NCBI GenBank assembly: GCA_002281755.1
Contig: NCHB01000005.1
Coordinates: 1 to 64,000, forward strand
Reading direction: 5' to 3'
Length of the DNA: 64,000 nucleotides
Source: Sulfurovum sp. 16-42-52
GTDB lineage: Bacteria > Campylobacterota > Campylobacteria > Campylobacterales > Sulfurovaceae
The position numbers and the translations under genes were made by a program. Under the pieces are notes generated by a model. The model did not search any database, was not told the origin of the DNA, and saw only the letters and a list, made by a program, of their open reading frames with translations. How positions within the stretch are numbered: position 1 is the first letter of the stretch; each line of letters starts with the position of its first letter. Positions 34,802-64,000 of the stretch are shown here, in pieces.

Positions 34802-34898
34802 CTACTCAAATTAATCTCCAAATATGGAGATTAATCTCTATTTTATAACTTCCCCCATTCTCATATACTACCTCTATCAAAACCAAAGGAGTCAAAAA

Positions 34899-36937: not shown

Positions 36938-36943
36938 GCATAT

Positions 36944-36964
36944 TTGAAAAATAAATATTTTCAA
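36944..36964. repeat. Short AT-rich inverted repeat after ParB-like gene
   Basis: TTGAAAA pairs with TTTTCAA 7 bases later. It lies just past the ParB-like stop; could be a weak terminator or a protein site. Confidence 0.3.
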
Positions 36965-37032
36965 CATGTCGATGTAATTATTTTGGTATAAAATCCTAAT
37001 ATAATATAGAGTTTCAGAGATTGGAGATAAAT

Positions 37033-37764
37033 ATGTCAGAAGAAATTGTAGAAAATATCACCGAGAATAAAAATAAAAAAATACAAACACTATTCTATAT
37101 TTCGATACTTATTGTAGTACTGATTGCGGTTTTTAAGATAGTTAATTATCAAGTTCCTGTTCAAGTTGAAAAGGTAAATAATAAATATTTTGAAGGTGCT
37201 TTTGGCTTGAAACTAGGTGACACATATGATGTAAGCAAAAATTCACTTTCTCGTGTCGAAGTAGAAGACATAATAAAAAAAAATTTACCTTTTTATGACG
37301 AAGAAGAATACATAAAATCTTATTATATTGTTCCACCAAAACCATTGGAATATTTTAGTCAATACAGTATTTCCATTGATCCACAAAGTCATAAAATTTT
37401 TGAGATTATAGGTTCTAAAGATTATCAAACTTATGAGGAATGCCGTAGCAAATATAAAATACTAGAACAAGTAATTGAAAATAAATACTGCAAAGTTATA
37501 ACACCTCTGAAAAATATATTTCAAATGACCAAAGAAGAAATAGAAGAAGCATCAAAGCCGAAAGATTGTGAAGCAAAATCAACTGATTATGGTATACATA
37601 TTGTTGTTGCTGACAGGGAGATATTTTTAGGGTGTGATAACCTCACATTAAGCATAAAGTACAGTACTACAAACGGTTATAAGGTAGCATACGAAGCATA
37701 TCTCGAATTAATTCAAACAAAGAGAAATTTAGAAGCTAGAAAAATTGATAATTCATCTTTATAG
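37033..37764 (+). CDS. Membrane-anchored hypothetical protein
   Basis: About 243 residues. One membrane helix at about residues 22-40 (TLFYISILIVVLIAVFKIV) after a short acidic N-terminus, then a soluble part, probably periplasmic, containing four Cys residues. No known domain. The ATG at 37033 with GGAG 7 bases upstream is preferred over an upstream TTG. Very AT-rich codon use. It converges on the leftward operon, the stops 7 bases apart. Confidence 0.6.
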   Translation: MSEEIVENITENKNKKIQTLFYISILIVVLIAVFKIVNYQVPVQVEKVNNKYFEGAFGLKLGDTYDVSKNSLSRVEVEDIIKKNLPFYDEEEYIKSYYIVPPKPLEYFSQYSISIDPQSHKIFEIIGSKDYQTYEECRSKYKILEQVIENKYCKVITPLKNIFQMTKEEIEEASKPKDCEAKSTDYGIHIVVADREIFLGCDNLTLSIKYSTTNGYKVAYEAYLELIQTKRNLEARKIDNSSL

Positions 37765-37771
37765 TGGTATT

Positions 37772-38287
37772 TTACATAGCCTCACAATACCCATGAGACA
37801 ATCTCCATTTATAAGACTCAACATACCGTTCTGCAAGCAACCATAGATACTCATTTTCACAGAGGTCAGAAATGAGTCTCTCTAATTTAGCTTTGGATAT
37901 TTGACGTCTTGTCTTGGTTGGTAATTTATGTCCTGCCCTGAATCTATAGATACGACCTGAGAAGGCATTGACTGAGGCAGCCAAGATATTACGTACGTTA
38001 TGCCCGTAACGCTGCGGTACAATGGCATACACAGCCATTCTACGTGTAAGAAACATTACTACCTCTACACGAAAGTGTGTAAGATTTTTGATACTTATAT
38101 TCGCATCAAGAATATCACAATGACCAAGACGACAAAGAATCCTGTCAGCCAAGTTATAAATCGTATCATCCTTTTTATGAATACGATAGGCATCTTTACT
38201 AAAATAGCCCTTTATCTCATCAACAGTGGGACAGTAATAATCATTACATGCTTTATTTGTTTTCCGTCCATATCTAGGATTTGTCAT
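37772..38287 (-). CDS. Hypothetical element protein, 171 residues
   Basis: Basic protein with several Cys and many Arg/Lys residues (RRMAVYAIVPQRYGHN in the middle), no recognised domain. Start at 38287 chosen for GGAAGATA just before it; it lies 14 bases inside the preceding gene. Last gene of the leftward operon. Confidence 0.55.
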   Translation of the reverse strand: MTNPRYGRKTNKACNDYYCPTVDEIKGYFSKDAYRIHKKDDTIYNLADRILCRLGHCDILDANISIKNLTHFRVEVVMFLTRRMAVYAIVPQRYGHNVRNILAASVNAFSGRIYRFRAGHKLPTKTRRQISKAKLERLISDLCENEYLWLLAERYVESYKWRLSHGYCEAM

Positions 38288-38495
38288 TATCTTCCAAAGG
38301 CAAATAAAACTCTTCACCATCCAAATACATTTCACAAATCATGCACGCAGCATAGTATGGCTGCTGCTTCATCTCATTTATCAGCGTAGTAGGCAGGTCT
38401 TCTGCTTCGATCCAAGCATCTTCATGATTCCATTGAAGTTTAGTTCCAACAAGTTTTGCACCCATACCATCCTCAAAGCGTTCTGTATTGGTCAT
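38274..38495 (-). CDS. Hypothetical element protein, 73 residues
   Basis: Acidic, contains a CMICE motif and an EFYLPLEDNDKS tail. No recognised domain. Overlaps both neighbours, so it is translated within the leftward operon. Confidence 0.55.
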   Translation of the reverse strand: MTNTERFEDGMGAKLVGTKLQWNHEDAWIEAEDLPTTLINEMKQQPYYAACMICEMYLDGEEFYLPLEDNDKS

Positions 38496-38782
38496 TTCTT
38501 CCCTCCATTGTGCATATTCAGATTAAGCAGCTTTGCCAACTCAGTAAATAATAAAGTATCTCCACGCACAACCGTTGATGACATGACCGGTACTTGATAC
38601 ACATATTTTGTTTTTTTTGGCTTCTGCCATGCTACTTCATTTTCACTAAGCATGATATTGCCACTCTTTTTGATAGTCAGTGCCACTGCTTCTTGTATGT
38701 CAAAGCCTAATTCAGCACTACAGATATCAAATGGAACCCACTCACCATATTTTTTGAGTATGTAGGCTTCAAGATTACTCAT
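38492..38782 (-). CDS. Hypothetical element protein, 96 residues
   Basis: No recognised domain; VPFDICSAELGFDIQEAVALTIKK might be a helix-turn-helix, but this is weak. Overlaps the neighbours by 4 and 8 bases. Confidence 0.55.
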   Translation of the reverse strand: MSNLEAYILKKYGEWVPFDICSAELGFDIQEAVALTIKKSGNIMLSENEVAWQKPKKTKYVYQVPVMSSTVVRGDTLLFTELAKLLNLNMHNGGKK

Positions 38783-39122
38783 TGTTAAACTCTATCTCTG
38801 CATGACGGTCTCTGCGTGACATTCCACTGAGGTCAGCATTATCTTGCTTCACCGTTGTTTCATTGAGTGGAAAGACAATATCCCTAAAGTGTTTACGTAC
38901 GGCTATACCATCACTAGCATATCGCAGGGCAAGGGCATCCAAGGATACTTCCTGTCCTGGATGGTCAATCCTGGCTACCTGTGGGCTATTCTCATTGTGT
39001 TCACGTATAATCGCAGGGTTTAGAAGTGCAGCAGGTATCTTTCCCTGTTTCAGCAATCTTTTTATCTCATTAAATAGTTGCGTCTGATGACGTGGCATAT
39101 CTTGAAGTCGTGGTTGATTCAT
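38775..39122 (-). CDS. Hypothetical element protein, 115 residues
   Basis: Hydrophilic; contains IKRLLKQGKIPAALLNPAIIRE and DALALRYASDGIAVRKHFRD, helical, no recognised domain. AGGAG lies 6 bases before the ATG. Overlaps the next gene by 8 bases. Confidence 0.58.
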   Translation of the reverse strand: MNQPRLQDMPRHQTQLFNEIKRLLKQGKIPAALLNPAIIREHNENSPQVARIDHPGQEVSLDALALRYASDGIAVRKHFRDIVFPLNETTVKQDNADLSGMSRRDRHAEIEFNNE

Positions 39123-39135
39123 GGCATTCTCCTGC

Positions 39136-39558
39136 TTATTTTATGCCTCTGTAGTGAACCCCTTCTACGGGACCAGTTGCCTCTTTTTTAAAAGCCTCAT
39201 CCTGTGCATGTGCCAGTCGTGTCTCAGGTAGCTGATTATGATAAGCTTGCATATTCTCTTCTTTTGTTGTTGCTGCATATGACTCACGTTCTTTACGTCT
39301 ATTAGTATCATTATGCCTATTTGCCTCGGCAATGGCTTTGTCTCTATCTGATAGTGCATCTACACCCATACCACCTATCAGCCCTTCATTTAACGACCAT
39401 GACTCGATAGTGTTCTTTTGTAACTGACGCACACCACCTGCCTTTGTCTTGATGATATACCCATCTGCCGTCTCACCCATTACCTGTACTTCACCTGCGA
39501 AGTTTCTTGAAACGTATGCTGCTAAATGTATCTCATTTGTCATATATCTTCTTGCCAT
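39136..39558 (-). CDS. Hypothetical element protein, 140 residues
   Basis: The N-terminal half looks like a small beta barrel (FAGEVQVMGETADGYIIKT, then a Leu-Asn-Glu stretch); the C-terminal half is a charged helix. No recognised family. An AAGGA that overlaps the end of the upstream ribbon-helix-helix gene is its ribosome site. Confidence 0.58.
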   Translation of the reverse strand: MARRYMTNEIHLAAYVSRNFAGEVQVMGETADGYIIKTKAGGVRQLQKNTIESWSLNEGLIGGMGVDALSDRDKAIAEANRHNDTNRRKERESYAATTKEENMQAYHNQLPETRLAHAQDEAFKKEATGPVEGVHYRGIK

Positions 39559-39561
39559 TTG

Positions 39562-39708
39562 TTAATCCTTTTGATTGGTTTTTTGTTTGATAAGCATTTG
39601 AACAATGCTTGATGGTGTGGTCTTTCTTTTATGGGCAAGCTTCTCTAATCGTAGCTTGTCTATCTCGGGTAGTCTTACTGTGATAGTTGAATCTTTTTTC
39701 TGTTCCAT
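39562..39708 (-). CDS. 48-residue ribbon-helix-helix protein
   Basis: Short gene with the CopG/Arc-like pattern STITVRLPEIDKLRLEKLA, then KRKTTPSSIVQMLIKQK: one beta strand and two helices, the minimal ribbon-helix-helix DNA-binding fold. GGAG precedes the ATG by 7 bases. It heads the six-gene leftward operon and lies next to repeated ATACTGAT sequences (39722-39799), so it probably represses this operon. The gene is easily missed because of its size. Confidence 0.75.
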   Translation of the reverse strand: MEQKKDSTITVRLPEIDKLRLEKLAHKRKTTPSSIVQMLIKQKTNQKD

Positions 39709-39721
39709 GGGTTCTCCTATT

Positions 39722-39799
39722 CATCAGTATAATTGATGTTGTCTTACATATTGATTAATAATACTGATTAATATGTATATCTTGATAAATAATACTGAT
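39722..39799. promoter_or_regulatory. Repeated operator-like motifs before the ribbon-helix-helix gene
   Basis: TTGATTAATAATACTGAT (39751-39768) and TTGATAAATAATACTGAT (39782-39799) differ at one base and start 31 bases apart, three helical turns. A third half-site in reverse, ATCAGTAT, lies at 39722-39729. Position just upstream of the leftward operon suggests binding by its first gene product; iterons for replication are an alternative. Confidence 0.6.
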
Positions 39800-39883
39800 G
39801 ATGTTAGATATACAAAACATATCACTTTTACTTATAGGGTTCAAAAATTGGAATATACAAATGAGGGGGTATCCCCTCCATAC

Positions 39884-40153
39884 TCACTTAAGACTTCCCC
39901 CATAGGGTACCTCTGCAACACACACATAGACAGACAAAGAAACTACACAATTCAGTGTATAGCTATGGGGTAGCATAGTTCTATAGCAGGTTACAGTGGC
40001 AAGGGAGTCCGCACAGTCATCACAATGGTCAGAGTTGCTAAGAGGGATTAAATCATCACCATACTTATGATGAACACCATTAACGATAACACCACACCTC
40101 ACAGCGTACACTCCTTGGGTGCAATAGCTGTACACTCTTCTGCTTATCTCCAC
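39884..40153 (-). CDS. Doubtful 89-residue ORF with Cys pair
   Basis: Open frame from GTG with sequence HKYGDDLIPLSNSDHCDDCADSL, which could be a small zinc-binding motif. Ribosome site is weak and no family is recognised. It points the same way as the downstream operon. May be chance. Confidence 0.25.
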   Translation of the reverse strand: MEISRRVYSYCTQGVYAVRCGVIVNGVHHKYGDDLIPLSNSDHCDDCADSLATVTCYRTMLPHSYTLNCVVSLSVYVCVAEVPYGGSLK

Positions 40154-40206
40154 ACAAATATGCTGATAAAAAACATTACATAAATCTAATCATCCACCTC
40201 TGCAAC

Positions 40207-40232
40207 CCAGCCCGACCGTAAGGGAGGGCTGG
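40207..40232. repeat. GC-rich hairpin in element intergenic region
   Basis: CCAGCCC pairs with GGGCTGG over a 12-base loop; unusually GC-rich for this AT-rich element. No T-tract follows, so terminator, origin structure or RNA element are all possible. Confidence 0.4.
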
Positions 40233-40534
40233 CATTACTAACAAACATATACACTAACAAAACTTGCATAACAGAGTCCTATTGGCTACAAAGGCGACTA
40301 ATCCTGCATGACCAACTCTTCGAGTTACTCACACAGTCTGTCAAACATCACAGCAAAGACTTCTTTCCAAGAACAATATAAATATCCATATTTGTTACAC
40401 GACAAAAATATGCTAGTTGTATAATTGCTGTTTATGAAAGAAAAGGTTGTGGTATTGTGTACTACAATATATCATAAATAATATACACAGAGTGAAAGCA
40501 AATAACACGCCAAAGCCATCAAGGGAGGCAACCA

Positions 40535-40735
40535 ATGCAATTCGAATATTATGAAGACAATGATATGTCACAGAAAGCACAAGACTATCGAATGAAAAGA
40601 TTAATAAAACAAGAGAGAAAAGAGTTTATAGGAGAAGCGGGAGAGTGGATTATAACACACGGTATCGTTTATGCAATGATAGCATCTATACCAATATCAC
40701 TTGTATATCATTTTATATCATGGATAATAAACTAA
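40535..40735 (+). CDS. Small membrane protein of the element
   Basis: 66 residues: a charged N-terminal half and one membrane helix at residues 44-64. A strong GGGAGG lies 8 bases before the ATG. No family recognised. Confidence 0.6.
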   Translation: MQFEYYEDNDMSQKAQDYRMKRLIKQERKEFIGEAGEWIITHGIVYAMIASIPISLVYHFISWIIN

Positions 40736-40821
40736 CCATAATAAGACCATTAAGCACTGTTTGAAAAGACAGCCAAGAGTTATTACCTAAAAACCACATC
40801 TTATAAATAAGAGGCAACGCT

Positions 40822-41436
40822 ATGATTTACAGACTACTAATACTACTAGCACTACTGACAATCAATGCACAGGCAGACGACTATTATAAGAATATAACAG
40901 ATGAAGCTTTATCAGAAATGATGCAAGACAAAAGCATACCGAAGGAAACAAAAAAAGGAATAGTGAAAGAATTCTCACGTAGGTCATTACAAAATATTAA
41001 AGTAGCAGTAGATGATTACAAAAAAGCAAAACAAAAAAGAGAAGCAACACAAAAAGAATATGAAGAAGCAGTAAAAAAACACGAAGCATTAGTAAAACAA
41101 GAAGCAATAAAACAAGAACTCTTGGCTGCACAGGAAGAAGCAGTAAAACAAGGGTTTTTAAAAAAGTTAGATGCACACTATAGACAACAGCACTTGGAGG
41201 AACAGCAGCAGCAGAACAGCCAATTGAGATACAATCGAGTATCTAGTCATTCTTATGATGAAGCAAATAATGCAATAGCAGAACTTGACATGGAACAAAG
41301 ACTAAATAGACAAGAACAAGAGTTCAATGATCATAAAGCAGAACAAGCAAGACAAAGGGCAACAGACAAACAAAATGAAATATTTGACAATGCTATGGAA
41401 CATATACATGGTGATAGTTACAGAAAAGGATATTGA
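40822..41436 (+). CDS. Exported coiled-coil protein of the element
   Basis: 204 residues. A signal peptide of about 18 residues ends AQA. The mature protein is almost entirely a Lys/Glu/Gln-rich coiled coil (residues 50-190) with a poly-Gln patch (HLEEQQQQN). No enzyme motif. GAGG precedes the ATG. Last gene before the right junction. Confidence 0.6.
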   Translation: MIYRLLILLALLTINAQADDYYKNITDEALSEMMQDKSIPKETKKGIVKEFSRRSLQNIKVAVDDYKKAKQKREATQKEYEEAVKKHEALVKQEAIKQELLAAQEEAVKQGFLKKLDAHYRQQHLEEQQQQNSQLRYNRVSSHSYDEANNAIAELDMEQRLNRQEQEFNDHKAEQARQRATDKQNEIFDNAMEHIHGDSYRKGY

Positions 41437-41653
41437 GAGGAGATTTAGGCGTCTTTCTCTTGGCTACACATACGAATGTATGCCTAAATGGATTCTACAG
41501 CCAATGGATTCGTTAGCACTATATTTAAAATACTCCGCTTGGCAGTATATATTATAACATATCAAAATCATAATACATTTTATTGTTTCCTGAACAGCAA
41601 GCAACCTTGGTTGGGAGAAATGCATAGCATTTCGGTGGTTAGAATACATGTTG

Positions 41654-41674
41654 TAGTAACACTATGTAGTAATA
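41654..41674 (+). repeat. Right integrase arm-type sites
   Basis: TAGTAACA at 41654 and TAGTAATA at 41667, 13 bases apart, same orientation and spacing as the left pair at 33062-33082. They lie 36 bases from the right att copy. Confidence 0.55.
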
Positions 41675-41709
41675 AATAGAAGAGATGCCCACTGTAGCGT
41701 GCATTGTAG

Positions 41710-41734
41710 TGGTGTCCCCACGAGGACTCGAACC
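41710..41734 (-). repeat. attR: att repeat within the intact tRNA-Arg
   Basis: 25 bases shared exactly with 32929-32953; here they are the 3' end of the functional tRNA gene. Right junction of the integrative element. Confidence 0.85.
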
Positions 41735-41785
41735 TCGAGCTAGGCCTTAGGAGGGCCCTGCTTTATCCTGTTAAGCGATAAGGAC
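41710..41785 (-). tRNA. tRNA-Arg (anticodon CCU)
   Basis: 76 bases including encoded CCA. Acceptor GTCCTTA pairs with TGGGGAC; D-stem GCTT/AAGC; anticodon stem GGGCC/GGCCT with loop CTCCTAA, anticodon CCT; T-stem CGAGG/CCTCG with loop TTCGAGT. Reads AGG codons. It is intact despite the element because the inserted DNA carries the 3' end sequence. Confidence 0.93.
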
Positions 41786-41842
41786 AGATTTGAAGAGTCG
41801 CATTTTAGCCTAAATTGACTATCGGAGGGTTTAAATACACTG

Positions 41843-41851
41843 TGATATAAT
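41843..41851 (+). promoter_or_regulatory. Extended -10 promoter of second type IIG gene
   Basis: TGATATAAT, extended -10, 29 bases before the GTG start of the restriction-modification gene and divergent from tRNA-Arg. Confidence 0.5.
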
Positions 41852-41879
41852 CTATCTAAATATATCGAATTGGAAAAAT

Positions 41880-44800
41880 GTGAAATCAGATATCAAAACA
41901 CCGAGAGATTTTCTCAATCCACTACTGGCAAAAAAGAGCATAGATAAAACAAAGTTTGATGCATTTAATTCAAATTTGCAAATTTATGTTAATGGCATAC
42001 ATTCTCAACATACCTCAGGGCAATCAGAACCAAATATTGTATCAAATACACTACAGCCATTTATCCAAAGTCTCAACTATATAGCTGAAGTTCATTCTCA
42101 AAAAGGTCAAAGCGGAATTGATTTGGCTATTAAAAAAGAGCATAAAGTCTCTGTTGTTATCGAGGCAAAGAAATATCAAGATAGAGACATGATAACCAAA
42201 GAGGATTTGCATAAAAAATCTTTTTATGAATCAATTTTGTATTTTATGAGAGAACGACACCAAGGCAATCAAAACATCTATCATGTCATCATAACAGATT
42301 TTTACAGTTGGTTTGTGTTTGATGCAAAAGATTTTGATAAACTTTTTTGGCAAAATAAACAGATAAAAAAGATATTTGAAAGCATAAACAACAACTCTCT
42401 TTTGGGAGACAGGACGACTGATTTTTACGATTTGGTTGCAAAAGAACTTCCAAATCTTAAAGTAAATTTATTTGATGACTTAAGCATAGAGTGTGCCTAC
42501 TTTAATCTCAAAAATGATAACACAGAAAAAGAGTTAGTTGCCATCTACAAACTCCTAAGTCCAGATAGTTTGCTAAAAGAGTTTAATCCAAACGATGCCA
42601 ATAGCCTCAATCGTGAGTTTTATAGTGAATTGCTCTATATATTGGGGCTAGAAGAAGTGAAAAATGGCAGTAAAAAACTCATCTCACGAAGCCTAAAACC
42701 TCAAAATGGATCTTTTTATGAAAATATAGCCGACAAACTCTCACAAAGAGGAAAACAGAGCGACTTTGAGACTATCATCCGTCTGATTATCATCTGGGTG
42801 AACAGGATACTTTTTTTAAAACTTTTAGAGTCCCAAATCGTGAGTTGGAATAAAAATAGTGACTATAAGTTTTTAACCCAAGACAAAATAGTGGATTTTG
42901 ATGCTTTGGAAAATCTCTTTTTTGATGTATTGGCAAAAAAATTATCACAGAGAAAACATAAAGAGTTTGACTACATCCCCTATCTCAACAGTTCGCTTTT
43001 TGAATTTAGTCCCATAGAAGATGACAATCTCTCTGTATCAAATCTAAGCGATGATGCAGTGATGGAGTACTACGCCAAAACTGTCATCAAAGACGAAAAA
43101 ACAAACCGTAAAAGCGGAACTGTATCTACACTGGTGTATCTTTTTGAGTTTTTAGATGCGTATGATTTTGGTTCTATAGGTAGTGACGATATGTTTGCTT
43201 CAACCAATAAAACCCTTATCAATGCTTCTGTACTTGGGCTGATATTTGAAAAGATAAACGGATACAAAGATGGCAGTTTTTACACGCCGAGTTTCATCAC
43301 GATGTATATGGCAAGAGAGTCTATTAGCAAATCAATACTAGATAAATGCAAAGATACATTCGACATAGAAGCAAATGATATAACTACCCTCAATCGTGAA
43401 CTTATCAGACAAAACATATCTATAGATGTCATAGATACTATCATAAACTCCATCACCATTTGTGACCCTGCTGTAGGGAGTGGGCATTTTTTGGTCTCTG
43501 CACTCAATGAGATTATTTATATCAAATACCAGTTAGGACTCTATAGCATCAGAGGGCTAAACATCAAACTAGCCAATGATGAGCTTATAGTCTCTCTACA
43601 TGATGAGTGGTTTGAATATATTAAGCCAAAAAGTTATGACAGCGACAATCATCTCGTTCAAAAACTCCTCTTTGAAGAGAAACAGCGCATCATCGAAAAC
43701 CAACTCTTCGGTGTGGACATCAACCCAAACTCTACACAGATAACCAAACTACGCCTTTGGATAGAACTACTGAAAAACAGCTATTACGCTCAGAGTGGTG
43801 AGCTGGTCACTTTGCCAAACATCGACATTAACATCAAAACAGGCAATAGCCTCATCAGCAGGTTTGATTTAAAAGATGAGATAAAAATCAAAAATATCAA
43901 GCAAGAGATAAAAAACTATAAGCAGATAGTAAAAGATTACAAAGAAAATCTAGGAACAAAAAAAGAAGTCTTAGCCTCCATAGAAAACCTCAAAGACAAA
44001 TTTCGACTTACGCTTAAAGCAGAGTACAAAGTACAAAAAGAGCTAAATGATAAACTTTTGGCGTATTATCAAGAGTTTAGTTTTGACAAGCTTAACGATG
44101 CACTGAGCCTTAAATGCTTAAGTTGGAGAAATAGCAATTATCAACAGCAACTTTTTGGAGAGATAGATGAAAAAAAACAAAATAAATCACTCTCAGAACT
44201 CAATAAGCTACTACTACAAATTGACGAGATAGAAAAAGGAAAGATTTACGAAGATGCTTTTGAGTGGCGGTTTGAGTTTCCTGAAGTGTTGGATGAAAAT
44301 GGGGAATTTGTAGGGTTTGATATTGTGATAGGCAATCCGCCGTATGGCGTAAATTTGAGCGAAGCAGATAAAAAGTATTTTCAAAATAGCTTTTATAGTG
44401 CAAGAACAGAAAATGGATTGAAAGGCTCAACTGATACATATAGTCTGTTTATAGACAGAGGAATGGAGATTTTAAATAGAGGTTATTTGCATTATATCGT
44501 TCCTCTTGCTGTAACATCAAGCGAATCAATGTCAAAGCTTCATAGTTTAATTTATAAATCTTGTGAAGATGTCAAGATATCTTCATATTCAAATAGACCT
44601 AAACAAATATTTGACGAAGCAGACCAAAGAGTAGCAATTGTTGAGCTTCATAAAAATAACAAATCTATAAAAAATCTAATGACAACAAAAATAAATAAAA
44701 GATATGCAGATACACAGCCTGATGAGATTATCAAAAATCTTGCATTTGCGAATGCTGTAAAATTTACGAAATATGGCAGGATTCCAAAAATTGGCACTCA

Positions 44801-45329
44801 ACTAGAAGAAAATGTTTTGAGTAAACTTTTTGCCTTGCCAAAAACACTTAAAGAGTATTATCAAAAAGATGGTTTAGATGTATATTATAGGACTTCTGGC
44901 GGTAGATATTATAATATTATCACAAACTTTTCTACCGGCTCAACTCAAGAAAAATCAATCAAAGTCAAGCCAGAATATCGTAATTTGATAGGAGCTATCC
45001 TTTCTAGCAATCTGTATTATTGGTTTTATCAAATGTATTCAGATACCTTACATATTAAATCTTTTGATTTAGATGAACTTCCTTGCAGTTTAGAAAAATT
45101 TACTGATGAGCAGATAGTAGAGATTGGCAAAATATATAATGAGTATATGATTGATTTAGAATCAAACTCAAGAATTGTAAATAATAGTTTCAAAGAGTAT
45201 CGTGCAAGACTTTCGAAACATTTGATTGATAAGTTGGATAGAGCTATATATAGTGGATTTGGATTAACAGAAGAAGAGTGTGAATTTTTGATAAATTATG
45301 ATTTGATTTTTAGAACAGATGAAGAGTAG
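41880..45329 (+). CDS. Type IIG restriction-modification enzyme, second
   Basis: 1149 residues, GTG start with a GGA box. Nuclease-like motif near residues 78-100 (GIDLAIKK...VVIEAKKYQ), SAM-binding motif CDPAVGSGHF near 528, catalytic IGNPPYG near 818, then a target-recognition region. It ends in FGLTEEECEFLINYDLIF, the usual end of one type IIG group. The frame is closed by a TAG; reading through it would add a 40-residue tail belonging to another type IIG group (45333-45452). Only distantly like the enzyme at 1625-4540. AT-rich codon use differs from core genes, suggesting transfer. Confidence 0.86.
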   Translation: MKSDIKTPRDFLNPLLAKKSIDKTKFDAFNSNLQIYVNGIHSQHTSGQSEPNIVSNTLQPFIQSLNYIAEVHSQKGQSGIDLAIKKEHKVSVVIEAKKYQDRDMITKEDLHKKSFYESILYFMRERHQGNQNIYHVIITDFYSWFVFDAKDFDKLFWQNKQIKKIFESINNNSLLGDRTTDFYDLVAKELPNLKVNLFDDLSIECAYFNLKNDNTEKELVAIYKLLSPDSLLKEFNPNDANSLNREFYSELLYILGLEEVKNGSKKLISRSLKPQNGSFYENIADKLSQRGKQSDFETIIRLIIIWVNRILFLKLLESQIVSWNKNSDYKFLTQDKIVDFDALENLFFDVLAKKLSQRKHKEFDYIPYLNSSLFEFSPIEDDNLSVSNLSDDAVMEYYAKTVIKDEKTNRKSGTVSTLVYLFEFLDAYDFGSIGSDDMFASTNKTLINASVLGLIFEKINGYKDGSFYTPSFITMYMARESISKSILDKCKDTFDIEANDITTLNRELIRQNISIDVIDTIINSITICDPAVGSGHFLVSALNEIIYIKYQLGLYSIRGLNIKLANDELIVSLHDEWFEYIKPKSYDSDNHLVQKLLFEEKQRIIENQLFGVDINPNSTQITKLRLWIELLKNSYYAQSGELVTLPNIDINIKTGNSLISRFDLKDEIKIKNIKQEIKNYKQIVKDYKENLGTKKEVLASIENLKDKFRLTLKAEYKVQKELNDKLLAYYQEFSFDKLNDALSLKCLSWRNSNYQQQLFGEIDEKKQNKSLSELNKLLLQIDEIEKGKIYEDAFEWRFEFPEVLDENGEFVGFDIVIGNPPYGVNLSEADKKYFQNSFYSARTENGLKGSTDTYSLFIDRGMEILNRGYLHYIVPLAVTSSESMSKLHSLIYKSCEDVKISSYSNRPKQIFDEADQRVAIVELHKNNKSIKNLMTTKINKRYADTQPDEIIKNLAFANAVKFTKYGRIPKIGTQLEENVLSKLFALPKTLKEYYQKDGLDVYYRTSGGRYYNIITNFSTGSTQEKSIKVKPEYRNLIGAILSSNLYYWFYQMYSDTLHIKSFDLDELPCSLEKFTDEQIVEIGKIYNEYMIDLESNSRIVNNSFKEYRARLSKHLIDKLDRAIYSGFGLTEEECEFLINYDLIFRTDEE

Positions 45330-45332
45330 TTA

Positions 45333-45452
45333 ATGAAAATAGGCAAAGACCCAAAATCGGACATTTCAGAACTAGAAAACCAAATAGATATGATGGTCTT
45401 TAAGCTCTATGATTTAAGCGATGAAGAGATAGCTGTGGTGGAGGGGAGATAA
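45333..45452 (+). pseudogene. Remnant of a type IIG C-terminus, in frame after the stop
   Basis: 39-codon frame whose end, KLYDLSDEEIAVVEGR, matches the end of the enzyme at 1625-4540 (ALYGLSEDEIAVVEGK). It begins 3 bases after the TAG of the second type IIG gene and in the same frame. It is either a leftover tail of a replaced gene, a small translated ORF, or a nonsense-separated extension. Its GGAGGGG is the ribosome site of the next gene. Confidence 0.7.
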
Positions 45453-45453
45453 A

Positions 45454-47097
45454 ATGAGTTTGAAACAATTTGAAAATAGCACGATAGAATATAAAAGTTT
45501 AAAAAAAGCAATCGGCAAAAGTGCTGATTTAAAAGATTTGGCTAAAACTTGCGTATGTTTGGCAAATACCCAAGGTGGATATTTATTTATAGGCATCGAA
45601 GACAAAGACAAGCAACCTCCCATTGATCAAAAAATAAATCAAGAAGAGATGAACGGTGTAATTAAGAAATTGAGAAGCTTAACCGATAGTGTGGGACTTG
45701 TAAATCCTGAATTACTCACTCATGATAATGGTGGTGAATATTTTGTGATACACATTTATCCTTCCATGAAAACCATAGCAATCACAAGTGATGGAAAAGT
45801 TTATATAAGAGTGGGAGATGAATGTACTGGCATAAAAGGTGAAGAACTTACTAGACTTGCCCATGAAAAAGGTGCTTTTCAATGGGAACTTGTAGTGACA
45901 AAAACGCATATTTCACAAATAGAACAGGCTAATATTAGTAAATTCACAAATGAAATAAGAAATTCTGATAGGGTCAGCGAATTTATAAAGAATCTTATAG
46001 ATGAAGATATTTTAGAATATTACAAATTAATCGATGAAGGCTACTTGACCAATTTAGGGATATTGTGGCTTGGAAATTTTAAACAAAGAGCAAAATTAAA
46101 TTACCCAATAACAGTACAATATATTGTTTATGATGAAAATGAAAAGAAAATAAGAAAAGTTGATTGGAATCTAAATCAATTAAATCCTAAAGAACTTTTG
46201 CTTGATATTGAAAAAGAAACAGTTGAGTTAAATTATAGTTTTGAACTACCTGATGGAATGTTTAGAAAACAAATAAGGCACTACGCAAAAGATGTAGTCA
46301 GAGAATTACTTGTAAATGCTTTTGTTCATAAATCTTTTACAATTTCAGGAGATATTTTTATATCACTATTTAAAGATAGATTGGAGATAAAAAATCCTGG
46401 TGGCTTACCTCTTGGAGTCACAAAAGATAATATCTTACATCAAGTTCAAAGGAGAAATCCACATCTTATTGATACTTTTAAGGCATTAAAATTAATGGAA
46501 AGTGAAGGCAGTGGTTATGACTTAATCTATGAAAAATTGAGTCTTGATGGCAAGCTATATCCTAAAATAGATAGCGATATAAATTATGTACAAGTTACGA
46601 TTTACTCAAATATTATTGATAATGATATTTTGCAATTTATAGATTATCTAAACAAGCATTATCAATTGAATCAAAAAGAAATCATTACAGTTGGAGCGGT
46701 CGCAAGAAATAAAAAAATATCAGGATTTGATTTGTCAAAAATATTGCAACTTGGAGATGATAGATTAAGACAATGGATTGATAATTTATTGAAGAAAAAT
46801 ATACTTGTTACGGAGGGTAAAACAAAAGGATTAATGTATATGATTAATCCAAAAATTTTATCATCTGTCGAACACGATTTAAAGCCAAGCTTAAAAACGA
46901 TGGAAGAACCACAGCTTAAAGCCCTTATCAAAGAAGATTTAAAACTGCATCCAAATAGTAAAATTTCTGAAATACATAAAAGAATGGGGGATTTTGATAT
47001 CAATTATCTTAGAAGAGTTATTTATAAAATGGCCAAAAATGGAGAAATTTATAAAGATGGTAAAAAGAAAAATATGGTTTATTTTCTTGGTCAATAA
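45454..47097 (+). CDS. AlbA/Schlafen-like ATP-binding protein
   Basis: 547 residues. The N-terminal AlbA_2 (Schlafen-like) domain reads ENSTIEYKS, DLAKTCVCLANTQGGYLFIGI and VYIRVGDE. A GHKL-type ATP-binding domain follows (VVRELLVNAFVHKSF near residue 285, LEIKNPGGLP near 313), then two winged-helix segments. Such proteins are annotated as transcriptional regulators or putative DNA-binding ATPases and often sit beside restriction systems. GGAGGGG inside the tail remnant is the ribosome site, linking it to the type IIG gene. Confidence 0.8.
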   Translation: MSLKQFENSTIEYKSLKKAIGKSADLKDLAKTCVCLANTQGGYLFIGIEDKDKQPPIDQKINQEEMNGVIKKLRSLTDSVGLVNPELLTHDNGGEYFVIHIYPSMKTIAITSDGKVYIRVGDECTGIKGEELTRLAHEKGAFQWELVVTKTHISQIEQANISKFTNEIRNSDRVSEFIKNLIDEDILEYYKLIDEGYLTNLGILWLGNFKQRAKLNYPITVQYIVYDENEKKIRKVDWNLNQLNPKELLLDIEKETVELNYSFELPDGMFRKQIRHYAKDVVRELLVNAFVHKSFTISGDIFISLFKDRLEIKNPGGLPLGVTKDNILHQVQRRNPHLIDTFKALKLMESEGSGYDLIYEKLSLDGKLYPKIDSDINYVQVTIYSNIIDNDILQFIDYLNKHYQLNQKEIITVGAVARNKKISGFDLSKILQLGDDRLRQWIDNLLKKNILVTEGKTKGLMYMINPKILSSVEHDLKPSLKTMEEPQLKALIKEDLKLHPNSKISEIHKRMGDFDINYLRRVIYKMAKNGEIYKDGKKKNMVYFLGQ

Positions 47098-47217
47098 AAA
47101 ATAAATTTTTAATAAAAAAGAAATAAAATATTATTAAGTTCCATAAAATAGGACTTTATTAAGATGTTTTTTTATTTTTTATTTGAAAATAAAAAATAAA
47201 AAAATAGATAATCGTTG

Positions 47218-47262
47218 TTAAGCTCTACGGTCTTAGATAAACTATGGTGGAGGGAGGATAAT
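47218..47262 (+). pseudogene. Second remnant of the type IIG 3' end
   Basis: TTAAGCTCTACGGTCTTAG aligns to TTAAGCTCTATGATTTAAG at 45400, followed after a short deletion by TGGTGGAGGGAGGATAA, like GTGGTGGAGGGGAGATAA. It encodes KLYGL, then a stop. It is too short to be functional. With the copy at 45400-45452 it flanks the AlbA gene as an imperfect direct repeat. Confidence 0.6.
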
Positions 47263-47304
47263 TATGTCATAATCTATTCATTCACTATTTTAAAGGCAAA
47301 CACC

Positions 47305-48393
47305 ATGAGAGAAAACTATTTTTTACGCTGGGTTGGATTTGTGGTATTTGTGCTGGTTATTTGGCTTTTTTTCCCTTTTTTAAAAAGTTTTTTTGTAGCA
47401 TTGCTGATGGCGATGGCTACGTTTTCCATATACCATCCACTGGAAACAAAACTAAAACAGAGTAAAAAACTAAAAACGCTTGCTCCACTATTTGCAGCCG
47501 GTATGGTTACCTTACTGTTTTCATTGATTGTTTTCATACCCATTACACTATTACTTTATTATTTCTTTAGTCACCCTTCAGATAGTATCGCTATGATTCA
47601 CACCTTTTTGAATGAAGTTGAGACCTTGAGTGAAAACCTCCCGAACTATTTGGATTGGCTTAAAACTCCCATCGATACGATTAATTCATTACTCGAAACA
47701 CGCAAAGAGGATATTGTGACGTTTATCGCAGGATGGCTTGGCAATGGATTGAAAAATTTCATGCAAATGCTGGGTAATATGATAATGGTTATTGTATTTT
47801 TCTTCTTTTTAACCTTGTACGGTCGAAAGCTTTTATTATTTTTTGTTCCCATTATTCCGTTGGCACGTTCGGTTAAGCGTGACTTTTTAAGAGAGATGAC
47901 GATTATGGTGTCGGTTGTTTTTTATACCCTGATGGGTGTCATGATCACGCAAGGTTTGGCATTTGGCATTTTTATTGCATTTTTTGATGGATACAACCCT
48001 GTATTGCTTGGATTTTTAGTCGGCATTGTGTCGGTTATTCCTATTATTGGTACTGCACTGGTTTGGGTTCCACTGGCGGTAAATGAGTATCTTCATGGCA
48101 ACGTCATTCATGCGCTCATTATCTCACTTTATTCTTATGCGATGATGGCGGTTTTCATTGACAATATTATCAAGCTAGTGATTTTAAATTTTATCAATCG
48201 TAAAGTAGGTAAAAACAGGCATCGTATCAATGATTTTATTATATTTTTTGCTGTCGTAGGAGGATTGGCAACTTTTGGATTCTGGGGATTTATCTTAGGA
48301 CCTGCTATCGTAGCGCTTGCTGCTACCACGCTCATCACTTTACGCAAAGCCAATCGATCGAGCCTTGCGCATGAGGGTGACACACTTAGATAA
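47305..48393 (+). CDS. AI-2E family transporter
   Basis: About 362 residues from the ATG at 47305 (AAAGG upstream); a TTG 30 codons earlier lies in remnant sequence and is rejected. About eight membrane segments with paired N-terminal helices, a cytoplasmic/periplasmic helical loop near 110-160, and the conserved C-terminal GFWGFILGPAIVALAATTL. Family members have been linked to autoinducer-2 export or Na+/H+ antiport; substrate unknown here. Converges on the coiled-coil gene with 3 bases between stops. Confidence 0.83.
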   Translation: MRENYFLRWVGFVVFVLVIWLFFPFLKSFFVALLMAMATFSIYHPLETKLKQSKKLKTLAPLFAAGMVTLLFSLIVFIPITLLLYYFFSHPSDSIAMIHTFLNEVETLSENLPNYLDWLKTPIDTINSLLETRKEDIVTFIAGWLGNGLKNFMQMLGNMIMVIVFFFFLTLYGRKLLLFFVPIIPLARSVKRDFLREMTIMVSVVFYTLMGVMITQGLAFGIFIAFFDGYNPVLLGFLVGIVSVIPIIGTALVWVPLAVNEYLHGNVIHALIISLYSYAMMAVFIDNIIKLVILNFINRKVGKNRHRINDFIIFFAVVGGLATFGFWGFILGPAIVALAATTLITLRKANRSSLAHEGDTLR

Positions 48394-59689: not shown

Positions 59690-60107
59690 CAAACTACAAA
59701 CAATCTTCCTACAAGCACACAAATGTAAGCAATTCCTTTCAATACAATTAGTTTTATATTTTGATTAACATAATATAAATTCTATCAAAAATAAAATAAC
59801 GTGCCTTTCTGCACTACCGCAAATCTATCTCAGCTATTATTTTTTACATTTATAAATATACATTACACCCAGATACTTCATATTTATATCTATCAAATCA
59901 AAGCCATTTCAGATCCTCAATGTTCATATTAAACAATAAAACTGAAACTATGAAGACAAAAGTTTAAACGAGAAGCAAAAACATTGTCAAATTAATATTT
60001 ATAAGTATCTAATTACTGTCTGATTCGCTTATCTTCATGTAGTAATGTTTATTCAGATTGCACTGAGCTAAAACCATACGTATTTAAGGGCACCCATTGA
60101 GATATAT

Positions 60108-60119
60108 GAACAATCGTTC
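60108..60119. promoter_or_regulatory. TetR operator-like palindrome 1
   Basis: GAACAATCGTTC, near-perfect palindrome; first of four, 42 bases before the next. Confidence 0.7.
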
Positions 60120-60149
60120 TCTAAAATAATTTTACCATATCGAATATAT

Positions 60150-60161
60150 GAACAAATGTTC
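60150..60161. promoter_or_regulatory. TetR operator-like palindrome 2
   Basis: GAACAAATGTTC, same half-sites GAACA/TGTTC, 42 bases after the first. Confidence 0.7.
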
Positions 60162-60191
60162 TTTTATTTAATTTGTCGTAATTCAGTATAT

Positions 60192-60203
60192 GAACAATCG
60201 TTC
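60192..60203. promoter_or_regulatory. TetR operator-like palindrome 3
   Basis: GAACAATCGTTC, identical core to palindrome 1, extended as TATATGAAC...GTTCATATA, 42 bases after the second. Confidence 0.72.
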
Positions 60204-60225
60204 ATATACACATGCAAGTAGATTC

Positions 60226-60254
60226 TTGACAAATGAACAAATGTTCATTATAAT
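60226..60254 (+). promoter_or_regulatory. Consensus promoter of tetR with embedded operator
   Basis: TTGACA (60226-60231), a 17-base spacer and TATAAT (60249-60254): a perfect sigma-70 promoter, rare in this window. Operator palindrome 4, GAACAAATGTTC (60235-60246), fills the spacer, so a bound repressor would block polymerase. The leader is only about 12 bases before the ribosome site AAAGGAG. Confidence 0.85.
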
Positions 60255-60272
60255 ACCGTTAAAGGAGTAACT

Positions 60273-60926
60273 ATGCACGAGCAGAGCGTCATTTCACCCC
60301 CTTCTAAGGGAAGTAAAACAAAAGAAAAAATACTCAAAACGGCGCTTGGGCTATTTGCCGTCAAAGGATACAGTGCCACTACGGTACGAGACATAGCTGG
60401 AGCCATGGATGTCAAACAAAGTGCGCTTTATAATCACTTTAAAAATAAAGATGAGATACTTGAAACGCTGGTGAGTGAACTGACCACTTCTGCGATTGTG
60501 ACACTTTTTGCAGACAAAGAGTCTGTAGGGCTACACAGACAAGGTAAATCCCTTTTGATGTCCATCGCAACCACCTTTAAACTCATAGGCTTTGATGGAC
60601 CCAATGAAGCATTAGTGAAGCTCCTGATGCAAGAGATATTTCGTAATGAACGCATACGTGAAATCTATAACGAATATTTCTATCAGGAAAACGTCAAAAA
60701 GCTCTCAGGCATCTTTTTTGCGATGATGCAGGATGAGATGATAAAGTCTTCTGACCCGCTGTTGCTTGCCAATGAATTTTTCTCACCGCTTTTTTTCTAT
60801 CAGATGCAAGTTTCTTTGCTAAAATTAGATAAAAAATCCACTTCTTCAGTCGTTTCTCTGTTCGAAAAACATGTGGATTATTTCTGGGATACGATCAAAC
60901 TAGAAAAACAGCAAACACTGTTTTAG
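60273..60926 (+). CDS. TetR-family transcriptional repressor
   Basis: 217 residues. Typical N-terminal HTH: KTALGLFAVKGYSATTVRDIA, then MDVKQSALYNHFKNKDEIL (residues 20-70); the C-terminal ligand-binding domain is helical and specific to the group. Four palindromes precede it, one inside its own promoter, so it very likely autorepresses and controls the two genes downstream. Ligand unknown. Confidence 0.88.
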   Translation: MHEQSVISPPSKGSKTKEKILKTALGLFAVKGYSATTVRDIAGAMDVKQSALYNHFKNKDEILETLVSELTTSAIVTLFADKESVGLHRQGKSLLMSIATTFKLIGFDGPNEALVKLLMQEIFRNERIREIYNEYFYQENVKKLSGIFFAMMQDEMIKSSDPLLLANEFFSPLFFYQMQVSLLKLDKKSTSSVVSLFEKHVDYFWDTIKLEKQQTLF

Positions 60927-60958: not shown

Positions 60959-61567
60959 ATGGAAAATACAATCGATCACTTTGTAAACAAATCAAAAACA
61001 TGGGATATGAGTTCTGAACGGGTTCAAAATGCCAAAGAGATAGCAGAACTCATCGTAAGTAATATTAAATTAGAGAGGTCCATGGAAATTATGGATTTTG
61101 GTGCGGGGACTGGGTTGCTTAGTTATTTTGTCGCGCCTTATGTCAAAAAAATCGTTGCTGTGGATAATTCTCCTTCCATGTTACGTGAATTTGAAAACAA
61201 ATGTGATGAATTTGTTTGCGAGACGGAAGTGCTGGAGATGGATTTGAGTTACCAAACTTTAGATAAAAAGTTTGACGGCATCATCTCATCAATGACACTA
61301 CATCACATTGAAGATACTACCGCCCTCTTTTCCAAACTCTATGCCATGCTTCCTGAACACGGATTTATCGCCATAGCAGATCTTGACTCTGAAGACGGCA
61401 CATTTCATGGGGACAATACAGGAGTATTTCATTACGGATTTGATCGTCACGTACTTACAGCGTCTGCCCAAAAAGCTGGATTTAGAGATGTTGCATTCTC
61501 ATTGGCAAACACGATTAAGAAACCTCAAGCAACTTTTTCTGTATTTTTGATGACAGCCGTGAAGTAA
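60959..61567 (+). CDS. Class I SAM-dependent methyltransferase
   Basis: 202 residues. Rossmann-type fold with motif I IMDFGAGTGLLS near residue 43, the acidic residue of VAVDNSPSML near 65 and ISSMTLHHIED near 115. Substrate not readable; the small size and lack of extra domain suggest a small molecule. Located 32 bases after tetR and directly followed by the DUF2238 gene, so in the TetR operon. Confidence 0.83.
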   Translation: MENTIDHFVNKSKTWDMSSERVQNAKEIAELIVSNIKLERSMEIMDFGAGTGLLSYFVAPYVKKIVAVDNSPSMLREFENKCDEFVCETEVLEMDLSYQTLDKKFDGIISSMTLHHIEDTTALFSKLYAMLPEHGFIAIADLDSEDGTFHGDNTGVFHYGFDRHVLTASAQKAGFRDVAFSLANTIKKPQATFSVFLMTAVK

Positions 61568-62170
61568 ATGATGCGTACACTTTGGCTTCTTGTTTTTTTG
61601 ACTGTACTTATCTGGTCGGCTGTCAATCCAAAAGATACACTCACGTGGTTTTTGGAGGTTCTGCCAGCACTCATAGGTTTTGCACTGATGGCACTCAGTT
61701 ACAAAAAGTTTCCGCTTACACCCCTGCTCTCCGTACTAATATTAATACATATGATTATTTTGATGGTCGGTGGACACTATACCTATGCCGAAGTTCCTTT
61801 CTTTGACTGGATGAAAGAAGTATTTGATCAGACTCGAAACAATTATGACAAAGTGGGACATTTTGCACAAGGTTTTGTACCTGCCATCCTTGCCAGAGAG
61901 ATTTTGCTTCGCAAACATGTCATACAAGGCTCAAAGATTTGGCTCAACTATAGTATCGTGAGTATCGTTTTGGCATTTTCTGCTTTTTATGAACTGGTAG
62001 AGTGGTGGGTTGCGCTTGCATCCAAAGAGAGTGCTGAAGCATTTTTGGGCACGCAGGGGTATATTTGGGATACCCAGTCAGACATGGCATACGCCCTACT
62101 TGGCGCTGCACTGGCACTTTTTCTACTTTCAAAAATACATGACACACAACTACAGACACTTAAGTCCTAA
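61568..62170 (+). CDS. DUF2238 (YjdF-like) membrane protein
   Basis: 200 residues with about five to six membrane segments. Family-typical conserved stretches are HYTYAEVPFFDWMK, NNYDKVGHFAQGF, FSAFYELVEWW and GTQGYIWDTQSDM; the conserved His, Asp and Glu residues in the membrane hint at an enzyme or metal site. Role unknown. Starts directly after the methyltransferase stop. Converges on copB with 4 bases between. Confidence 0.8.
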   Translation: MMRTLWLLVFLTVLIWSAVNPKDTLTWFLEVLPALIGFALMALSYKKFPLTPLLSVLILIHMIILMVGGHYTYAEVPFFDWMKEVFDQTRNNYDKVGHFAQGFVPAILAREILLRKHVIQGSKIWLNYSIVSIVLAFSAFYELVEWWVALASKESAEAFLGTQGYIWDTQSDMAYALLGAALALFLLSKIHDTQLQTLKS

Positions 62171-62174
62171 ATTA

Positions 62175-62870
62175 TTAGAACCAAATCCTTACCCCTAGCA
62201 ACAGATTGGTTTCATCGATGGGCATATAGTCTCGTGTATTGCCAAAAGTTTTTTCCCATGTCACACCAATGTAGGGTGCAAATTCACGTTGTATCTCATA
62301 GCGTAACCGCAACCCAGCTTCTATGTTTGAGAGTCCTGAACCTACTCTCATCTTGGCATCATTGGCTGTATAAAAATCTGCTTCCAAAGAGGGTGTGAGT
62401 ATGAGTTTTTGGGTCAACAGTGCTTCGTACTCTGCATCAAAACGAAACCCGACAGTTCCCTCTTTGCCAACAAGCAGTGCCGCTCTTGTCTCAAAATAGT
62501 AAGGTGCCAAACCTGCCAGCGCAATCTCAGCCCATGTTTTGGAGGCGTCATCGTTTTTATCATAGGCAAAACCCATTTGCACATCCCAATAAGGAGCGAT
62601 GGCGTGTGAGTAAACGATATCATTTTGACTACTATTAAGACCATCTGAAGTGGCTTCTGTTTCACTATAAAAGTAAATTTTATGAAGGTCATACCCCAAC
62701 CAAAAACTGCCTTCAAACATTTTTGTCTGCTCTGTGTCATCATGAACTTCCAGCCTGTCTATGATGACCATACTTATCAGGGGGTCATCTTCCATATGTC
62801 CCATGTGTTTCATATCAGCATAAAGGTTTTGAGTAATGCCTATTATCAAAAAGAAAAGTGTCTGTTTCAT
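62175..62870 (-). CDS. copB: Copper resistance protein B, outer membrane
   Basis: 231 residues. A signal peptide of about 18 residues is followed by a short Met/His segment (MKHMGHMEDDP) and a beta-barrel of the CopB/PcoB family (FEGSFWLGYDLHKIYFYSE, EAGLRLRYEIQREFAPYIGV) ending in Phe. Works with CopA to tolerate copper. AAGGAGG lies just after the copA stop, so it is translated right behind copA. Confidence 0.87.
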   Translation of the reverse strand: MKQTLFFLIIGITQNLYADMKHMGHMEDDPLISMVIIDRLEVHDDTEQTKMFEGSFWLGYDLHKIYFYSETEATSDGLNSSQNDIVYSHAIAPYWDVQMGFAYDKNDDASKTWAEIALAGLAPYYFETRAALLVGKEGTVGFRFDAEYEALLTQKLILTPSLEADFYTANDAKMRVGSGLSNIEAGLRLRYEIQREFAPYIGVTWEKTFGNTRDYMPIDETNLLLGVRIWF

Positions 62871-62879
62871 TTTGCCTCC

Positions 62880-64000
62880 TTAGACCACATGCACTTCTCT
62901 AAACATACCTGCCATATGGTAAAGCATATGACAATGAAATGCCCATCTGCCTTTGGCATCGACGGTTACCCTGTAGCTTATCTTTGCCCCTGGTTGTACA
63001 ATGACGGTATGTTTTCTGACTAGATGCGCATCATCTCCCGTTTCCACATCACTCCACATCCCATGTAGATGCATGGGATGGTTCATCATCGTATCATTGA
63101 TGAAGGTAATGCGTATGCGTTCACCATAGGCAAATGCCAAAGGTTCGGCATCAGCATATTTGATGCCGTTAATCGACCACATAAAGCGTTCCATATTGCC
63201 TGTGAGATGCAAGATAATCTCCCTGTCTGGTTTTTTCGCATTCCGTGTGGAGTATCTGTTCTTCAAATCAGCATAACTGAGCACTTTTCTACCGTTATTT
63301 CTCAACCCTACTCCTGGGTCATCCAGTCTGTACTGGGGTGAAGTAGCCCTCATATCTATCTGAACTCCCTCAGCCATAGGTAAGGGAGTGATGGGATAGT
63401 GTTGCGATTCCATGTGAGCATACTTGCTTTTTTTCATATTTTTTTTAGAAGGCATGCTCATCCCAGCACCGCACTTCATGCCTCCATCGTGATCCATCTC
63501 ATCCATCGCCATACCCATGTCCGCATGTGTTAAAATAGGTTTAGGATCCATAGGAGGGGGTGTTGCCAGCATCGATGTATTTGGTGTCAGTGAACCTAAA
63601 GTATACCCAGAACGGTCGATACTTTGGGCAAATATCGCATAGGCTTGGTGTTTTTTAGGTTCCACGATAACATCATAGGTTTCAGCCACCCCAATGCGAA
63701 ACTCCTCAATGTTCACAGGCAAAACATGGTTACCATCAGCAGCCACCACCTGCATGGTTAGTTCAGGGATACGCACATCAAAAAAGGTCATCGCAGCCGC
63801 ATTGACAAAACGCAGTCGTATCTTTTCTCCTTTTTCAAAAAGAGCTTTAAAGTGTGTGGTGGGATTTTTCCCATTCATTAAGTAAGTATAGGTCGCACCC
63901 GATACATCAGAGATATCTCTGTCACTCATACGCATCTCATTCCACATTTTTCTATCAGAAGATGCCGTCATAAACCCTTTTTCTTTTACTTCATCCATAA
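62880..64000 (-). CDS. copA: Multicopper oxidase CopA, C-terminal part (runs off window)
   Basis: At least 373 residues of a CopA/PcoA-type periplasmic cupredoxin oxidase; the N-terminus with the Tat signal lies beyond 64000, so the first visible Met is not the start. Middle domain with Met/His-rich insert (HADMGMAMDEMDHDGG, GMSMPSKKNMKKSK) as in copper-tolerance oxidases. The C-terminal cupredoxin has HPMHLHGMW and the type 1 copper motif HCHMLYHMAGM, complete. Oxidises Cu(I) or sequesters copper. Operon copA-copB. Confidence 0.9.
   Translation of the reverse strand, partial: MDEVKEKGFMTASSDRKMWNEMRMSDRDISDVSGATYTYLMNGKNPTTHFKALFEKGEKIRLRFVNAAAMTFFDVRIPELTMQVVAADGNHVLPVNIEEFRIGVAETYDVIVEPKKHQAYAIFAQSIDRSGYTLGSLTPNTSMLATPPPMDPKPILTHADMGMAMDEMDHDGGMKCGAGMSMPSKKNMKKSKYAHMESQHYPITPLPMAEGVQIDMRATSPQYRLDDPGVGLRNNGRKVLSYADLKNRYSTRNAKKPDREIILHLTGNMERFMWSINGIKYADAEPLAFAYGERIRITFINDTMMNHPMHLHGMWSDVETGDDAHLVRKHTVIVQPGAKISYRVTVDAKGRWAFHCHMLYHMAGMFREVHVV

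Follow-up and report, generated by a model that had tools for sequence, protein, structure and literature searches.

Features of the tetR locus

The window, that is, the whole stretch of 64,000 nucleotides of Sulfurovum DNA that was analyzed, carries a gene for a TetR-family protein preceded by four palindromes of the type GAAC-N4-GTTC, starting at 60108, 60150, 60192 and 60235, and by a dif site 317 bp upstream of the first of them. The features, with operator centers given relative to the inferred transcription start, are:

59763-59790, minus strand: dif, chromosome-dimer resolution site; GATTAACATAATATAAATTCTATCAAAA on the plus strand, TTTTGATAGAATTTATATTATGTTAATC in the published sense
60107-60120, unstranded: operator 1, TGAACAATCGTTCT; center at about -147.5; kept in relatives
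60149-60162, unstranded: operator 2, TGAACAAATGTTCT; center at about -105.5
60191-60204, unstranded: operator 3, TGAACAATCGTTCA; center at about -63.5
60226-60254, plus strand: sigma-70-type promoter, TTGACA-17-TATAAT; overlaps operator 4; consensus match 12/12
60234-60247, unstranded: operator 4, TGAACAAATGTTCA; within the promoter spacer; center at about -20.5
60273-60926, plus strand: tetR, 217-aa TetR-family DNA-binding protein (Pfam TetR_N); presumed ligand of the array
60959-61567, plus strand: class I SAM-dependent methyltransferase (Pfam Methyltransf_25, E=4.3e-14); likely co-transcribed with tetR
61568-62170, plus strand: DUF2238 membrane protein (Pfam DUF2238, E=2.3e-58); third gene of the presumed operon

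In order, the palindromes read GAACAATCGTTC, GAACAAATGTTC, GAACAATCGTTC and GAACAAATGTTC, spaced by 42, 42 and 43 bp, exactly as an earlier note on this DNA had described them. Its further claim that the last palindrome fills the spacer of a perfect promoter is confirmed as well, the -35 element (TTGACA, 60226-60231) and the -10 element (TATAAT, 60249-60254) being 17 bp apart. It was also right that no divergent gene lies upstream, where the neighbor is a co-directional L,D-transpeptidase gene ending at 59643. The four-site array is not a chance occurrence: GAACNNNNGTTC is found 5 times in the whole window against 0.88 expected (Markov-1), with an expectation of 0.003 per 200 bp, and the exact pattern GAACAWWYGTTC has no further match in the source genome (1.99 Mb, 66 contigs). 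An Rfam match to tsr32 over 60165-60271 was disregarded because its 29.9 bits fell short of the gathering score, 98.

The tetR product has the N-terminal helix-turn-helix of the family (PF00440, E=3.8e-15, 55.8 bits against a cut-off of 24) and an all-helical TetR fold in its AlphaFold model (pLDDT 84), with 429 PDB matches at E<=0.001, the best of them TetR-family proteins. Its C-terminus (60905-60923) reads ...EKQQTLF, and a Q-x-(T/S)-L-F tail (QETLF, QSTLF, QTTLF) ends many Sulfurovaceae orthologs, including some among loci L035-L059. This tail resembles the QxxLF motif that binds the beta sliding clamp; the Q is substituted in some Sulfurovaceae, and the Sulfurimonadaceae orthologs have no such tail. 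Beyond the presumed operon, genes for CopB and a CopA-type multicopper oxidase (62175-63998, minus strand) form a copper-resistance cluster.

Conservation of the array with tetR

Orthologs of the TetR protein occur in 106 of the 175 family genomes and in records named Sulfurovum, Nitratifractor, Sulfurimonas and Nitratiruptor, and nearly all of them are accompanied by the array. Conversely, a tandem pair of sites was found in 95 of the 175 family genomes, every one of which encodes the TetR protein; the array was found in none of the 69 family genomes without it (0/69), and a reversed control pattern gave no match in the 175. Another 11 TetR-positive family genomes had no detected array, several of them being interrupted by a contig end. 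Across the order, the pattern matched 95 of 399 sampled genomes, the system being absent from many Campylobacterales. Sampling of genomes is uneven throughout, and kinship among them was handled with a tree and a set of representatives. The earlier note had held that relatives without the upstream palindromes would speak against its reading; in the event, both the number and the phase of the sites are kept across family and order.

Distinct loci with at least 250 bp of upstream sequence have exactly four sites in 125 of 164 cases and three in 24 of 164. The palindromes are almost invariant among 56 Sulfurovum arrays and the mid-spacer positions are near random, which argues that each site is under selection. 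By these comparisons, the array is evidently ancient and conserved. The alternation of cores to which the earlier note had drawn attention is real in the source genome but has not been conserved, the central four bases being patternless in relatives, and is a coincidence of that genome. There are also losses. One locus (L099) has no palindromes, and its dif lies within the tetR promoter region; another (L096) has a single degenerate site left in the promoter; and in a third (L168 in G091), where tetR is truncated and off the terminus, the array is gone.

What lies downstream of tetR is more variable. The methyltransferase gene adjoins tetR in about 77 Sulfurovaceae loci and the DUF2238 gene is kept in part of the family, whereas neither is found there in Sulfurimonadaceae; operon content is thus less conserved than the array. 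Since the gene after tetR is convergent in Sulfurimonadaceae, tetR itself is the sole gene left for the array to control in that family.

Helical phasing of the operators

Why are the operators spaced as they are? The 444 gaps examined fall into three classes, 24 at 20-24 bp, 161 at 31-34 bp and 259 at 41-45 bp, or roughly 22, 32 and 42 bp, corresponding to two, three and four helical turns, and none of the 444 is a half-turn gap of 25-30 or 35-40 bp. The best zero-phase period for these gaps is about 10.6-10.7 bp, and among 29 representatives with less than 70% identity the mean deviation from multiples of 10.6 bp is 0.58 bp, against 2.65 bp expected. In most Sulfurovaceae the gaps measure 42-43 bp and in Sulfurimonadaceae 31-33 bp, while 21-22 bp is found in other lineages, as are mixtures such as 22-33-42, 32-22-42, 33-31-22, 43-43-33 and 22-22-22. 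On a FastTree phylogeny, whole-turn changes occurred at least five, at least eight and at least five times at the first, second and third gap, or at least 18 times independently. In effect, evolution has performed a natural experiment, repeatedly inserting or deleting whole helical turns between the operators.

The same-face placement of the sites, proposed in the earlier note from the window, is therefore borne out in relatives, where gaps are always whole turns. Since whole-turn gaps of different length are interchangeable, the constraint on spacing must be rotational rather than one of fixed distance, as far as can be judged from the genomes compared. The whole-turn changes are strong sequence evidence for same-face assembly by the TetR protein. 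Of the arrangements that the earlier note had suggested, cooperative or bent-DNA repression gains support, the phasing favoring a bent or wrapped cooperative complex, but a filament with one fixed repeat does not. The equal 42-bp spacing of most Sulfurovum arrays is what a TetR protein forming a regular filament along the DNA would produce; however, gaps of 22, 32 and 42 bp coexist and change places within a single array (as in the first three mixtures above), a rotational constraint without a translational one is not that of a lattice, and the arrays end at four sites. A filament is accordingly the least credible of the explanations considered here.

Promoter layout and the search for other targets

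One of the operators coincides with the core promoter in both main families. In the 56 Sulfurovum arrays, cTTGACA and TATAAT are conserved around site 4; a cTTGACA-17-TATAAT promoter is conserved in Sulfurovaceae, with site 4 filling its spacer. The Sulfurimonadaceae instead have TATAAT after site 3, with site 4 farther downstream. A site inside the core promoter in both layouts fits autorepression. Binding of the protein to the array is deduced from their co-occurrence, the type of palindrome and its position. That TetR dimers would attach cooperatively along a single DNA face and so repress tetR is a well-supported reading, in which the cooperativity itself and any bending of the DNA are presumed.

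Little points to a wider regulon, near-matches elsewhere in the source genome and strict sites outside the array in relatives both being few. Almost all of the outside sites examined are within unrelated coding genes. In several Sulfurimonas-type genomes, sites seemed to cluster close to oriC, but they proved to be in differing coding genes, and the cluster was rejected. Among the genomes searched, the array thus appears to be the only conserved target of the protein.

Related palindromes do occur elsewhere. At three Arcobacteraceae-type loci (L214-L216, in G420, G413 and G485, respectively), the same palindrome occurs in pairs with a spacing of 20-22 bp; a distant TetR protein (about 40%) goes with L215 and L216, and no tetR match was detected for L214. 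The pair in G420 is at about 0.25 of the circle, away from the terminus; a related operator thus seems to serve a different system there. In family f6 (L239-L241 and L283), two AACATATGTTC-type sites lie 33 bp apart, with no tetR of this TetR family detectable nearby.

Association with dif and the replication terminus

The earlier note had recognized neither dif nor where on the chromosome the array is located. Measured from dnaA, the position of the array is 0.463-0.545 of the circle in all 26 closed genomes (26/26), which places it at the replication terminus, and in the window dif is close by, in the intergenic region between an ORF ending at 59643 and the ORF starting at 60273. The 21-base core of this dif is identical to a motif at -772 from tetR in G066 and is the single match without mismatches in the 77-kb contig; the -772 motif lies within positions 1186909-1186948 of G066, which are the dif 40-mer given for Sulfurovum sp. 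NBC37-1 in the published dif survey (PMC2731167). The array of G483 likewise has, at a distance of about 0.9 kb, the dif published for Sulfurimonas denitrificans. The cumulative GC skew has its maximum in the same bin as dif in G066 and about 10 kb from dif in G483; the skew of the source contig is weak. Two Xer-like recombinases in the source genome (214.5 and 148.3 bits, against a XerD cut-off of 329.6) mirror those of G066, and the difH pattern is not found in the window, as expected for a lineage with classical dif. A further tyrosine recombinase gene (33388-34233, plus strand; 54.9 bits to the XerD model) borders a stretch of lower G+C, at about 34000-48000, that is possibly an integrated element, some 12-26 kb from dif.

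Other genomes have the same association. Upstream sequence of 1.45 kb or more was available for 116 array loci, of which 98 have dif or difH within 2.1 kb (92 within about 1.2 kb and 6 more up to 2.1 kb); in the other 18, neither was detected in the sequence covered. The orientation of classical dif is the same in 98 of 101 cases. Lineages with XerH instead have xerH and difH next to the array, with xerH, difH, array and tetR packed within a few hundred bp. At three loci (L093, L097 and L186), a classical dif beside the array is accompanied by an XerH-like gene, or a fragment of one, some 520-590 bp upstream of tetR, which suggests that these lineages are passing from one Xer system to the other.

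Might the array, then, be an accessory sequence for Xer recombination, where a TetR complex wraps the DNA by dif and biases or times dimer resolution, like ArgR and PepA at cer? The constant vicinity of dif or difH, the single orientation and the compact arrangement in XerH lineages would all fit. However, systems like cer require a fixed geometry, whereas the distance from dif to the array ranges from 43 to 1190 bp (median 409) and has no helical phase (R 0.07-0.15). A distance that is both variable and unphased does not imply a rigid complex of dif and array, and the accessory role is improbable. The position at the terminus would also suit a replication roadblock, bound TetR dimers stalling forks by dif in a trap like Tus-Ter, and dense arrays of TetR-bound operators can indeed block forks. 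But blocking has no need of phasing, which is the strongest constraint seen, and symmetric palindromes confer no fork polarity, making a roadblock more doubtful still. With the distance to dif free and phase of no use to a roadblock, neither role fits as well as the explanation favored below. Nor is it at all probable that the upstream sites belong to some other gene, for instance one reading divergently. Such a gene exists in XerH lineages, where xerH is divergent with the array in between and could be acted on by TetR; however, in the window and most relatives nothing divergent lies close to the array, and the neighbor upstream of it is not conserved.

A more serious alternative is that the array is purely autoregulatory and that its location is passive, an ancestral position kept by inversions that are symmetric about the axis from origin to terminus. 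The presence of site 4 (Sulfurovum) or site 3 (Sulfurimonas) in the core promoter, the lack of a further conserved target and the restriction of the downstream unit to tetR in Sulfurimonadaceae are all in its favor. On the other hand, the array stays within 0.04-2 kb of dif, much closer than preservation of distance from the origin would account for; this linkage persists beside two unrelated Xer/dif systems and, in the families compared, has been kept by no other gene. When the roughly 80 kb around dif was compared in four genomes from three families, each region with 67-75 ORFs, all four shared tetR and no other gene; tetR is also the only reciprocal best match between the source contig and the corresponding Sulfurimonas region. 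The OGOR gene, which is the neighbor of tetR in Sulfurimonadaceae and is present in nearly all genomes, ranges from 0.18 to 0.75 of the circle elsewhere; outside Sulfurimonadaceae its mean distance from 0.5 is 0.139, compared to 0.023 for the array. A passive origin of the location consequently looks less likely on this gene-order evidence, with pure autoregulation somewhat less probable than not.

A proposed function for the array

The explanation to which we lean, with slightly better than even confidence, is that of a dedicated four-operator array for the TetR protein encoded downstream, located at dif, which serves cooperative autorepression and most likely a job at the terminus. TetR dimers would sit on the four palindromes, all facing the same side of the helix, and cooperative assembly, with bending or wrapping of the spacer DNA, would join them into a single nucleoprotein complex. 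By covering the tetR promoter, where site 4 lies between the -35 and -10 elements, the complex would cause steep repression of its own gene; it might also mark or organize the dif region for segregation or division. A terminus job is likely because the array stays by dif despite unrelated Xer systems and appears to be the only conserved target of TetR, but whether the complex has such a function we regard as about an even question. The fuller proposal, that this is an undescribed terminus factor of Campylobacterales, in which TetR on a phased four-site array by dif marks or organizes the terminus while controlling its own level, is tentative and falls somewhat short of even.

No paper connecting a TetR protein with dif was found in the open-access literature searched, nor anything relevant on TetR proteins with the terminus, with same-face operators or with Sulfurimonas. 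We know of no MatP, SlmA or Noc in Campylobacterota. Of the genes compared, tetR alone was found to have kept its place by dif in several families whose Xer systems are unrelated, and terminus organization in this phylum becomes directly testable through a single small gene and a 150-bp array.

Comparison with known systems

As an autorepressor, the protein resembles other multi-operator members of the family such as EthR and QacR, which likewise have palindromic operators over their own promoter and several dimers per region. It differs from them in having four separate operators, with a whole-turn spacing that is kept over an order and gaps of two, three and four turns that are interchangeable, and in its location at dif. 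No array of this kind, with four phased operators at dif, was found in the open-access literature searched. The window dif is of the classical type described for Sulfurovum and Sulfurimonas in the survey of dif/XerCD and difH/XerH in epsilonproteobacteria, which, in the part of its text available, describes dif as being without a specific genetic environment and mentions no associated TetR protein or operator array (PMC2731167).

MatP with matS and Tus with Ter are likewise dedicated DNA-binding proteins that act at the replication terminus. Their folds are unrelated to TetR, however, and matS sites are spread over the macrodomain and Ter sites are polar, whereas the present array is a single phased cluster by dif.

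Closer in fold are SlmA and RefZ, TetR-family proteins by which the septum is positioned in relation to the nucleoid. SlmA, the nucleoid-occlusion factor of E. coli and Vibrio, shares the TetR fold, occupies palindromes on the chromosome with several dimers at each, and has a function that depends on location. Its sites are scattered and, according to the abstract of PMC4117426, commoner toward the origin, in contrast to the one terminus array found here, and the similarity in sequence is at the level of the fold only (26.3 bits to the SlmA model PRK09480, cut-off 120). RefZ, which positions the septum in B. subtilis, also has a TetR fold and nearly palindromic motifs at a conserved distance from oriC; there are five of these RBMs around oriC, compared to a single array at dif. 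The best NCBIfam match of the TetR protein is the RefZ equivalog NF037937, at 60.1 bits and thus below the cut-off of 180. Homology to RefZ or SlmA, hinted at weakly by NCBIfam and by single-sequence PDB matches, was not upheld by profile searches or Foldseek, which did not single out nucleoid-binding TetR proteins. Membership in either group is not supported, but the protein could possibly work like RefZ or SlmA, by analogy. Should the terminus proposal be correct, the TetR protein would be a functional counterpart of MatP, SlmA or RefZ in which the same array also sets the level of its own TetR.
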